A stretch of DNA of 45,027 nucleotides from Bacillota bacterium. GTDB lineage: Bacteria > Bacillota > Bacilli > Alicyclobacillales > SLC66. The DNA lies in contig JAPNUP010000039.1 of the NCBI GenBank assembly GCA_026627345.1, forward strand, positions 1 to 45,027, given 5' to 3'. The notes beneath the pieces were generated by a model that saw only the letters and a program-made list of their open reading frames with translations, did not search any database and was not told where the DNA came from. Below, in pieces: positions 5,509 through 10,247 of the stretch. The position numbers and the translations under genes were made by a program. Each line of letters opens with the position of its first letter. Position 1 is the stretch's first letter.

Positions 5509-5544
5509 TGTGCCGTGCGCATACGAGAGAGAAGGGATCGCTTC

Positions 5545-6729
5545 GTGCTGACTTCGCCTTTTTTCACCTTCGCTTTCGTCTTTGTCATCGCCTTTCTCAT
5601 GCCATTTATCGCCCTGTCTGTTCCGGCCTTTCGCATGCCGACGGCGATTTTAGAGATTCTCTGCGGCGTTTTGGTGGGGCGAAGCGGATTGCATGTCATT
5701 TTGCCACCAGATTGGTTACACGTGATCACCAAATTGGGCCTTTTGTACCTGATGTTTCTCGCGGGTTTAGAGATTCGCACACAAAGCCCTGACGGGCAAG
5801 CAAACACCGGCAACAAACGTGAACAGGTGATTCTAGCGCTCGCGCACTTTGTCGCCACCATGGCCGTCGCCTTGGCAGCGGGACATTTATTACAGATGTT
5901 CGGGATGTCGACATCGCCCCTTTTTACCGCTTTAATGTTCGCCACGACCTCCCTTGGTGTGGTGGTCCCCATTCTCAAAGAGTCTGGCTGGATGGACCGT
6001 CCACTCGGTCAGACATTGCTACTGTCCGCTCTGTTTGCAGACTTTGGCACAGTGGCCTTGGTTCCCTTTACGCTGAACGTGCCTGGCTTGTCGACTGGAC
6101 ATCCGCTCTTCGCCATTGTCGCCTTGACAGTTCTTGGCATACTGCTTTACTTCGGAGGCAAAAAAGTTTTACAGGCGCCTGTCCTCGCGAAGCGTTCCGC
6201 GCGTACGCAGCAACTGGGTGTGCGGGGAGCCTTGGCTTTGATGGGAATCAGCGGCGCTATCTCTCAGGCCTTTGGTGGTGGGATGATCTTAGGCGGGTTC
6301 GTCTCGGGCTTCGTCTGTTCGTTACTCGCCAAAGCAGAGCATGAGGTGCTGCGTAAAAAGTTAGAGATACTAGGGTACTCCCTCTTTCTTCCCTTGTTTT
6401 TCATCACCGTAGGTATGGACCTCGATGTCTCCCACATCGCCTTTGGTCAACTTCTAAGCTGGCTCCCGGCCTATCTGCTGCTCGCGTTTCTCGTCAAAGG
6501 GGTGGCGTCGCTTACGCTTTGGCCGTGTTACAAAGGGCGCGAACTTTCTGCTGCCGGTGCGTTATTGTCGACACGTTTTACCTTGGTTATCGCTGTCGCC
6601 TTGACAGCGGCCAAGTCGCACATCATCTCTGGAACCGAGGAGGGCACGCTGATCGCCATGGCCCTCGGTACGGTTTTACTATCTCCCATGCTCTTTCTCG
6701 CCTTATTACCACAAAAACAAGACGCGTGA
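5545..6729 (+). CDS. Cation:proton antiporter, CPA2-type (Na+/H+ exchanger family)
   Basis: This is a 394-residue protein with about 11-12 membrane segments and few charged residues. It carries features of the monovalent cation:proton antiporter-2 fold: FRMPTAILEILCGVLVGRSG near the N-terminus, LGLLYLMFLAGLEI in the third or fourth helix (the acidic Glu is conserved in CPA2 members), and LFLPLFFITVGMDLD in the second half. No cytoplasmic TrkA-N domain follows, so it is a membrane-only form. GTG 5545 is chosen because GAGAAGGG lies eight bases upstream; an in-frame GTG at 5515 has no ribosome site. Substrate ion (Na+, K+ or drug) cannot be told from sequence. It is divergent from the SPOR gene and convergent with the bacilliredoxin. 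Confidence 0.85.
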   Translation: MLTSPFFTFAFVFVIAFLMPFIALSVPAFRMPTAILEILCGVLVGRSGLHVILPPDWLHVITKLGLLYLMFLAGLEIRTQSPDGQANTGNKREQVILALAHFVATMAVALAAGHLLQMFGMSTSPLFTALMFATTSLGVVVPILKESGWMDRPLGQTLLLSALFADFGTVALVPFTLNVPGLSTGHPLFAIVALTVLGILLYFGGKKVLQAPVLAKRSARTQQLGVRGALALMGISGAISQAFGGGMILGGFVSGFVCSLLAKAEHEVLRKKLEILGYSLFLPLFFITVGMDLDVSHIAFGQLLSWLPAYLLLAFLVKGVASLTLWPCYKGRELSAAGALLSTRFTLVIAVALTAAKSHIISGTEEGTLIAMALGTVLLSPMLFLALLPQKQDA

Positions 6730-6765: not shown

Positions 6766-7098
6766 CTACTCTGTGATGCGACTCTCTTCCTTAGAGAGGT
6801 TCTGCGCCGTGATGTCGTAATGAGAGGTGTGAAACACCACTTGGCCCTTTTTGACCAAAATCATCTGTGGCGACGCGTGACGAACCTTAAGCTTTTCGGC
6901 CAGAGACAATGACAGTGGCCGCGATTCGATCACGAGTACTTTGAGAATCGGCAACTTCGCCGTCTGTGCAAACCGGCTCACCTCCTGGTGAGCATGCGCG
7001 CTGACTGGTCAGGTCGAACTGTGTTTGAAGAGCCAGTACGTATCCTCTGCGTCCGTTACAGCCTGTTGCCACTGCTCCTGCGACGAAACATCAATCAT
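6766..7098 (-). CDS. ytxJ: YtxJ/BrxC-type bacilliredoxin with in-frame TGA at the catalytic Cys; predicted selenoprotein
   Basis: YtxJ (BrxC) is a small thioredoxin-fold monothiol bacilliredoxin thought to remove bacillithiol from protein cysteines, using the Cys of a T-C-P-[IV]-S motif. From ATG 7098 (AAAGGAG eight bases upstream) the frame reads WLFKHSST, then TGA (7011-7009, codon 30), then PVSAHAHQEVSRF. It continues in the same frame to TAG at 6766, giving 110 residues if TGA is decoded. The rest is intact family sequence: VLVIESRPLSLSLAEKL, VRHASPQMILVKKGQ, FHTSHYDIT. TGA thus stands exactly where the catalytic Cys belongs, and a hairpin fitting a bacterial SECIS follows. The alternative is a single nonsense mutation (TGC or TGT to TGA) or a base-call error. 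The nearest upstream gene is closed by a terminator, and no promoter is visible between that terminator and this start. Confidence 0.8.
6976..7011 (-). promoter_or_regulatory. Candidate bacterial SECIS element after the TGA codon
   Basis: In the mRNA the TGA (7011-7009) is followed by 15 bases and then a perfect 7-bp stem GCUCACC/GGUGAGC (6993-6987 with 6982-6976) closed by the loop AGGA (6986-6983). The apical loop begins 22 bases after UGA. Bacterial SECIS elements, as I know them, are stem-loops a few tens of bases or less downstream of UGA, with a small loop that has G in its first two positions; this hairpin fits. The loop and 3' arm also contain AGGAGG, a Shine-Dalgarno-like string, so SelB binding is a prediction only. 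Confidence 0.65.
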
Positions 7099-7119
7099 GA
7101 TAAACACTCCTTTCATGCC

Positions 7120-8438: not shown

Positions 8439-9203
8439 CTAGACTGGCGACGCAGAGAAAAACGTGTGTAGATAGAACTGTAACCACCCCTGCCCATAGA
8501 GCGCGGTCAAGAGCGTGGATAAAGCGATCGGGGGGCCAAAGGGAAGCGGGCGCACGAGTGGCGTGCGCATGCTTGCGCGCCGGACAATAGCGGATATGAG
8601 TCCGATCAATGATGCGAGCCCGATCGCAAACCCCAGTAATGGCAGCCCCACTAAAAGGCCCACCAAAGTAAACAATTTGACATCACCGAAACCGAGGCCT
8701 CCACGACTCAGTACATAGACGGCATATAGTGCACCGTACCCGATCACAGCCCCTGCCCCATAAGACCACATCCCCAAAGGGTGAATAAAAAGGCGCAGCG
8801 CGGCGATCGTCCAGATAGCTGGCCACAAAATCTTATCGGGCAAACGAAGAGTCAGGGAATCTGCTGCCGACAAGGCACACAGCATCCCGAGTCCACACCA
8901 TAAGACGAGCGTTTCGCTACTGAAACCGGTGCTTCTAAAGATGAGTACAGCAAGCACCCCTGCCCCTCCTTCATAAAGGGGATAAAGGGCGGGGATCGCG
9001 TGTCCACAAGTACGGCACCTGCCTCTTAACAGACACCAAGAGAGCACAGGCAACAGCTCGAACCAGACAAGACGTGTATGGCAGTGATCACATCGAGAAG
9101 CTCCGCGAAAAAGGGGGCGCTGCGCAGCTATACGTATGCCAAGAGTTACGCAAAATGAACCAAAAACGAGCCCGTACACCCCGACCCAAAACCAGACTAT
9201 CAC
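8439..9203 (-). CDS. comC: Prepilin peptidase (type IV leader peptidase, PilD/ComC family)
   Basis: An aspartyl protease of the inner membrane that cleaves, and in some members methylates, type IV prepilins and competence pseudopilins. The protein is 254 residues with about seven or eight membrane helices. The N-terminal cytoplasmic domain has two CxxC pairs (CDHC, then CRTC 28 residues on) that usually bind zinc. The catalytic aspartates are in AADSLTLRLPD and in GLGFGDVKLF. GTG 9203 is chosen because AAGGAGG lies eight bases upstream. It follows pilT by about 30 bp, so the two are probably co-transcribed. In B. subtilis comC sits between folC and spoIIB, as here. Confidence 0.93.
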   Translation of the reverse strand: MIVWFWVGVYGLVFGSFCVTLGIRIAAQRPLFRGASRCDHCHTRLVWFELLPVLSWCLLRGRCRTCGHAIPALYPLYEGGAGVLAVLIFRSTGFSSETLVLWCGLGMLCALSAADSLTLRLPDKILWPAIWTIAALRLFIHPLGMWSYGAGAVIGYGALYAVYVLSRGGLGFGDVKLFTLVGLLVGLPLLGFAIGLASLIGLISAIVRRASMRTPLVRPLPFGPPIALSTLLTALYGQGWLQFYLHTFFSASPV

Positions 9204-9233
9204 ACGATCATCCTCCTTACGCAGGCCAGACAC

Positions 9234-10247
9234 TTATCCAGCAGTGGAGTCCCTAATACGTCCTGCCATGACAGCATCGCGATAAGCCATTTCCATCGTC
9301 TGCATGCCATAGCTCCGACCAGTCTGCATCGCGCTACGAATCTGCGATCCTTGGTCTAAGCGAATCAGATTGGCAATTGCCGAAGTGTTCACCAGCACCT
9401 CCGCAAGGAGCGTAAGCGTCTTGTCATCTGCACCTAAAACGAGGCTTTGCGCAATCACTGCTGTCAGAACACCGGCTAACTGGCTGCGTGTCGGCTGCCG
9501 ATCACTTGGCGCAAAAGCGTCTACGAGGCGATCGATAGCCTGGACGGCATCTCCCGTGTGCATCGTCGCCAAGACCAAGTGCCCAGTCTCCGCTGCCGTC
9601 AAGGCAGTGGCCATCGTCTCTTGATCCCTGAGTTCCCCAATCATCAGCACATCAGGATCTTGCCGCAAGGCCGCCCGCAAACCGAGTGCAAAAGAAGCGG
9701 TGTCCGTTCCGACTTCACGCTGATCGATCAAGCAGTGGACATGCTCATGAAGATATTCAATCGGGTCTTCGAGGGTAATAATGCGCCGTCGCGTATGCCG
9801 ATTCACATAGTCCAAGAGCGCCGCCAGCGTCGTAGACTTGCCGCTACCCGTCGGTCCAGTGATCACAATCAGACCGGATTCACGCAACACCAGAGTCGTC
9901 AACGCTGGCGGAAGCGACAACGCCTCAAGCGGAGGTGGCGTCTGCGACAAAACCCGTGCCGCGACACTGATGGCTCCTGCACGTTGCCGAAAGACACAAA
10001 TGCGAAACCGCCCGATCTCCGGCAGCGTGAGCGCAAAATCCACTTCGCCACGCTCATCGAGGTCGTGCTGCTGCCGCGGAGACAGGATCCCCTCGATCAT
10101 CCCATTGGTGTCGACCACCGAGACGGCAGACAGCAGTAGCGGATGTAGTTGCCCGGCGATGCGAAGGGTGGGCGGGGCACCGGCGGTGACATGCAAGTCC
10201 GATGCCCCCTTGGTAACCGCTAGCGCCAACAACTCTCTAAGCGTCAT
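9234..10247 (-). CDS. pilT: Type IV pilus retraction ATPase PilT
   Basis: This is a 337-residue secretion-type hexameric ATPase that powers pilus retraction. It has an N-terminal PAS-like domain (1-100), Walker A GPTGSGKST (131-139), an Asp box (LEDPIEY, 159-165), Walker B DPDVLMIGELRD (197-208) and a His box HLVLATMHT (223-231). AIANLIR near residue 300 corresponds to the AIRNLIR motif that separates PilT from the assembly ATPase PilB. AGGAAGG lies ten bases before the ATG. It is separated from murC by a strong terminator, so it starts a pilT-comC unit. No pilB, pilC or pilin gene is in the window. Confidence 0.93.
   Translation of the reverse strand: MTLRELLALAVTKGASDLHVTAGAPPTLRIAGQLHPLLLSAVSVVDTNGMIEGILSPRQQHDLDERGEVDFALTLPEIGRFRICVFRQRAGAISVAARVLSQTPPPLEALSLPPALTTLVLRESGLIVITGPTGSGKSTTLAALLDYVNRHTRRRIITLEDPIEYLHEHVHCLIDQREVGTDTASFALGLRAALRQDPDVLMIGELRDQETMATALTAAETGHLVLATMHTGDAVQAIDRLVDAFAPSDRQPTRSQLAGVLTAVIAQSLVLGADDKTLTLLAEVLVNTSAIANLIRLDQGSQIRSAMQTGRSYGMQTMEMAYRDAVMAGRIRDSTAG

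Follow-up and report, generated by a model that had tools for sequence, protein, structure and literature searches.

A hairpin within the coding sequence of a bacilliredoxin gene from a member of the Bacilli is best explained overall as a bacterial SECIS element, which would direct the insertion of selenocysteine (Sec) at an in-frame TGA codon. From the genomic comparisons described below, we put the probability of this reading at roughly 0.93. The gene, brxC, lies on the minus strand of the window, i.e., the whole 45,027-nucleotide stretch of DNA that was analyzed.

A TGA-containing brxC gene and its hairpin

The gene and the elements discussed here are as follows (window positions, all on the minus strand).

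7107..7113, minus: likely brxC ribosome-binding site AAAGGAG, 8 nt upstream of the ATG, as read from the sequence
6766..7098, minus: brxC/ytxJ gene, 333 bases, with in-frame TGA and matches to PF11009 and TIGR04019
7009..7011, minus: TGA codon, putative selenocysteine, in the active site T-U-P-V-S and aligned with the family Cys
6987..6993, minus: 5' stem arm of the putative SECIS, GCTCACC (pairing, recoding test, covariation)
6983..6986, minus: apical loop of the putative SECIS, AGGA, with G at loop position 2
6976..6982, minus: 3' stem arm of the putative SECIS, GGTGAGC (pairing, recoding test, covariation)
6962..7005, minus: possible extension at the base of the hairpin, interrupted by internal loops, from the minimum-energy fold of this sequence only
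6981..6986, minus: AGGAGG string spanning loop and 3' arm, regarded as incidental, present in five of nine Sec genes

With the TGA read as Sec, the product has 110 residues; Sec is residue 30, and a residue count finds no Cys elsewhere. The protein matches PF11009 (Pfam BrxC) with 98.1 bits (cut-off 24.2, E 3e-28) and TIGR04019 (NCBIfam B_thiol_YtxJ) with 98 bits (curated cut-off 77.25). Compared with TCPIS, its active site, TUPVS, replaces C with U and I with V and keeps the other residues. In the only solved relative found via sequence, PDB 3iv4 (annotated as 'putative oxidoreductase'), the Cys of TCPIS aligns with the TGA codon. The neighboring frames at window positions 8439-10247, judged by eye from the motifs in their translations, look like those of a prepilin peptidase and of a PilT-type ATPase. 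BrxC is described as a monothiol bacilliredoxin that uses the active Cys of TCPIS to take bacillithiol off proteins (PMC8301015). Judged by its sequence, the window gene is a BrxC/YtxJ monothiol bacilliredoxin in which TGA stands at the position of the sole catalytic Cys. Its product shares with B. subtilis YtxJ the profile, the length, and the position of the active residue, and the genome has the bacillithiol pathway; the window protein differs in carrying a putative Sec in place of the active Cys and in having no other Cys.

The original prediction had described a perfectly paired 7-bp stem closed by an AGGA loop, with the stem beginning 15 nt and the loop 22 nt downstream of the TGA, and these coordinates agree with the sequence, as does the reading of the stem-loop codons as A-H-A-H-Q-E-V-S. 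The predicted free energy is -11.4 kcal/mol for the bare hairpin and -18.2 kcal/mol with the lower extension. The bSECIS limits set out in PMC13188914 are an apical loop of 3-9 nt, an upper stem of 4-16 bp, a G among the first two loop nucleotides, a distance from UGA to loop of 16-37 nt, and a free energy of -7.5 kcal/mol or lower. The window hairpin lies within these limits for loop and stem (4 nt and 7 bp), for the loop G (AGGA), and for spacing and energy (22 nt and -11.4 kcal/mol bare). It is thus like the bSECIS consensus of that source in loop, stem, loop G (followed by a second G), spacing, and energy, and no feature falls outside the model; it differs in belonging to a gene family unlisted there (PMC13188914).

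Hairpins of this kind are common by themselves, and therefore the case rests on comparison. The window contains five perfect hairpins with a 7-bp stem and a 4-nt loop, against 3.2 ± 1.5 in Markov shuffles, and for the 1531 TGAs of both strands a stem of 7 bp or more, placed as in a SECIS, is listed 25 times, with some TGAs listed twice. The fold z-score of the 76-nt stretch is only -0.75. In view of the five hairpins against about 3.2 expected and of this z-score, the significance of the hairpin by itself was dropped as evidence.

Sec and Cys forms among relatives

BrxC was found in 14 of the 18 family genomes at 15 loci, eight with TGA and seven with Cys, and all eight TGAs stand at the Cys codon. 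Over the order, 34 loci were found in 30 of 59 genomes, with TGA at the Cys codon in nine of the 34; the ninth, in Alicyclobacillus mengziensis (G037), lies outside the family and is a separate Sec case. Three Cys copies from the order search were left out of the later comparison. Over the class, 267 of 398 genomes had BrxC, with no further TGA case among the matches listed. The Cys set is a sample, the class level having supplied its best 30 loci only, and four rows were dropped before counting: L083, L095, and L104, with no motif match, and L048, identical to L044.

Contigs from 84,980 species were scanned for the TGA-containing peptide motif, with at least eight matches: A. mengziensis (a complete chromosome), Ferroacidibacillus organovorans SLC66, five Bacillota MAGs, and one Flavobacteriales MAG. 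This count is a lower bound because the pattern requires an AGY codon for one Ser and misses certain variants of the motif; the scan may also leave out records of the window's own genome. The Flavobacteriales match (L050) was discarded as a chance hit, its surroundings containing no BrxC frame. Another locus, L035 (G024:C1:2439818-2440126), was rejected as a Sec gene, as its TGA falls at a Trp codon and its Cys is intact. Genome G024 has a second, uninterrupted BrxC copy, and L035 is apparently a duplicate in decay.

For covariation, the hairpins of the eight family Sec genes were aligned on the loop, ungapped. Paired bases fill 91.8% of the cells, and six of the seven pairs change on both sides, so that the stem arms are kept with compensatory changes in the TGA-containing relatives. 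The covariation score is 0.741, against 0.297 ± 0.070 for shuffled alignments, none of 500 of which scored as high, and slid versions reached at most 0.163. The loop reads AGG[A/T] in all eight genes; one outer pair is broken in three of the seven distinct rows. In G001 and G002, the hairpin lies 3 nt farther downstream of the TGA than in the others, so aligning on the loop puts these two genes out of step with an alignment by codons. In the same codon register, the C-G and U-A pairs of the window become U-A and C-G in G011, G012, G013, and G008, and one such compensatory pair arises via a synonymous Val change.

The protein sequence as a source of the stem was assessed with 3000 synonymous recodings per gene, using codon usage from 15 window genes. 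For the window gene, only 0.13% of the 3000 recodings match the energy of the natural hairpin (p 0.0013), in keeping with the earlier proposal that the stem is not dictated by conserved residues. The corresponding p values are 0.0007 in G014 and G002, 0.013 in G008, and 0.044 in G001. They range from 0.09 to 0.25 in G011, G012, G013, and G037; the null is therefore not rejected in four of nine Sec rows, where the encoded protein by itself could account for the hairpin.

As anticipated, the stem is not equally kept in Cys relatives. With contiguous stems, a qualifying hairpin is present in 9/9 Sec versus 15/46 Cys rows, with median energies of -4.8 and 0 kcal/mol, respectively (rank test p 2.7e-7), and -7.5 kcal/mol is reached in three of the nine Sec and none of the 46 Cys rows. 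When internal loops are allowed, seven of nine Sec rows reach this energy versus seven of 46 Cys rows (p 0.0005), and a single one of the seven family Cys rows has any such hairpin, at -6.2 kcal/mol. The stem of G037 is short (-4.5 to -6.2 kcal/mol). The SECIS reading is thereby supported, in that the stem is conserved through compensatory change in TGA genes and not equally so in Cys genes; neither of the two outcomes that the original prediction named as refuting it was observed.

The closest Sec/Cys pair, L077 and L078, comes from one bin (G008, contigs C19 and C43) and differs by TGA versus TGC and by loop AGGT versus ATGT; the stem of the Cys copy is still paired, and its loop G is lost. 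An interpretation of the two copies as paralogues was set aside, since their surroundings are homologous over about 5.7 kb at 83-88% identity; probably two related strains are present in one bin. Across the protein tree, computed from only 105 columns with the U/C column masked, a single origin of Sec was rejected (nine Sec rows as one clade, p-AU 5e-12). At least three changes between Sec and Cys, in either direction, are forced by starred branches and five by parsimony.

Sec machinery and rival readings

The genome of the window (G000; 2.76 Mb, 99% complete) contains all of SelA, SelB, SelD, and tRNA-Sec, as expected for a selenoprotein gene. SelA scores 587.9 bits and SelB 388.8 bits; tRNA-Sec scores 53.2 bits, is called by ARAGORN as tRNA-SeC with anticodon tca, and lies on the same contig as SelA. 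SelD (333 bits; L079, G000:C152:29951-30877, minus strand) itself contains one in-frame TGA, in the context T-S-C-A-G-U-A-A-K, with an AGGTCC/GGACCT hairpin whose loop, GGG, starts 17 nt after the TGA. SelD thus counts as a second selenoprotein of this genome. Like brxC, it combines an in-frame TGA with a hairpin within bSECIS limits; unlike brxC, it belongs to a known selenoprotein family, and the two hairpin sequences are unrelated. Formate dehydrogenase alpha is described as the most widespread bacterial Sec protein. In the window genome, its gene (L110, G000:C114:2892-4904) reads without an in-frame stop over model positions 1-671 and so is no Sec client. Rfam at gathering thresholds found only a tRNA in the window.

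SelB exceeds the cut-off in 16 of the 18 family genomes and is fragmentary in the remaining two; thus, Cys forms of BrxC live beside Sec machinery. Two genomes with Sec-BrxC show gaps: in G014, SelB is represented only by a fragment that covers model positions 1-124 and lies at the end of a contig, and tRNA-Sec falls below the cut-off, and the best tRNA-Sec match of G013 is doubtful (49.7 bits). These gaps are most simply explained by incomplete assemblies.

Several other readings of the TGA and hairpin were weighed. Were the TGA a genuine stop, brxC would be a decaying pseudogene or encode a truncated 29-residue peptide, and the hairpin would be there by chance. TGA does serve as an ordinary stop elsewhere (the gene at 5515-6729 ends in it), and L035, with TGA at a Trp position and Cys kept, demonstrates that such decay exists in the order. 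This reading is nonetheless very improbable, as the same codon is TGA in nine loci of several genera, always at Cys, and the stem covaries. Moreover, all nine Sec frames end at the usual C terminus, and in three pairs of Sec genes from within a genus the 72 codons that follow the TGA give dN/dS values well below 1 (0.294/1.368, 0.139/1.214, and 0.080/0.763). Purifying selection together with intact C termini therefore speaks strongly against a plain stop.

Hairpins downstream of stop codons can also stimulate read-through. The UGA might accordingly be read as another amino acid or be inefficiently suppressed, with the hairpin acting as a read-through enhancer and not as a SelB-bound SECIS; the evidence bearing on this is genomic. 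The full SelA/B/C/D set with a Sec-type SelD, the position of the TGA exactly at the redox Cys, and the fit of the loop G at position 2 and the 22-nt spacing to the bSECIS model (PMC13188914) make it, too, a highly unlikely account. Less likely still is that the hairpin mainly hides a Shine-Dalgarno string and controls an internal start. The AGGAGG proposed for this masking does lie in the loop and 3' arm, and it recurs in G014, G011, G012, and G013 besides G000. The regulatory role drawn from it is unsupported, given that the string is missing from four of the nine Sec genes (G001, G002, G008, and G037) though the stem-loop stays, and that the only start codon at a usable spacing is an out-of-frame TTG followed by a stop after 13 codons.

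Proposed function and implications

On the preferred reading of the hairpin as a SECIS, a ribosome reaching UGA 30 of the brxC mRNA would meet SelB carrying Sec-tRNA(Sec) and bound to the apical loop A-G-G-A and the stem, and selenocysteine would be inserted in place of termination. The resulting BrxC/YtxJ product would have a selenol as its single redox residue. Its selenolate would attack the mixed disulfide of an S-bacillithiolated protein to give an Se-S-bacillithiol intermediate, which free bacillithiol would then resolve. We infer SelB binding, Sec insertion, and this chemistry from genomic evidence. By analogy with BrxC (PMC8301015), the Sec enzyme probably serves to remove bacillithiol from S-bacillithiolated proteins. 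The bacillithiol substrate is likely available because BshC is present in 17 of the 18 family genomes, including that of the window. The Sec glutaredoxins and thioredoxins in PMC13188914 are likewise small thioredoxin-like redox proteins whose N-terminal active residue is Sec. They have a partner Cys (UxxC), whereas U-P-V-S of the window protein lacks one, and the expected thiol is bacillithiol.

As a selenium protein, BrxC appears to be absent from earlier lists. Table 1 of PMC13188914, which catalogued 119 families of prokaryotic selenoproteins in 2026, contains no BrxC, YtxJ, or PF11009, and a term search of the deep-Sep paper (PMC12013277, main text) gave no match for these names either. 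In PMC12822559, selenocysteine serves as a toxic analogue that is added to cultures. No report of YtxJ, bacilliredoxin, or DUF2847 as a selenoprotein was found in the open literature searched; a database may already annotate BrxC in this way. Ordinary gene callers would end such genes at the TGA.

More tentatively, and at somewhat less than even odds, a mono-selenol bacilliredoxin, in which Sec is the only chalcogen redox residue, may be a leading selenium client in a lineage of Ferroacidibacillus-related Bacilli, with Sec and its SECIS repeatedly swapped with Cys and the RNA element coming and going with one codon. If this is true, close genomes that differ by TGA/AGGT versus TGC/ATGT would constitute a natural experiment. 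The preferred SECIS reading has implications of its own. It would add a selenium-dependent form to the bacillithiol system, in which only Cys enzymes were found described so far. A Sec redox protein without a resolving Cys would let the choice of Sec over Cys be tested cleanly. Close relatives that all retain SelB carry now the Sec form and now the Cys form, which permits a direct test of the rise and decay of a SECIS within a coding sequence.
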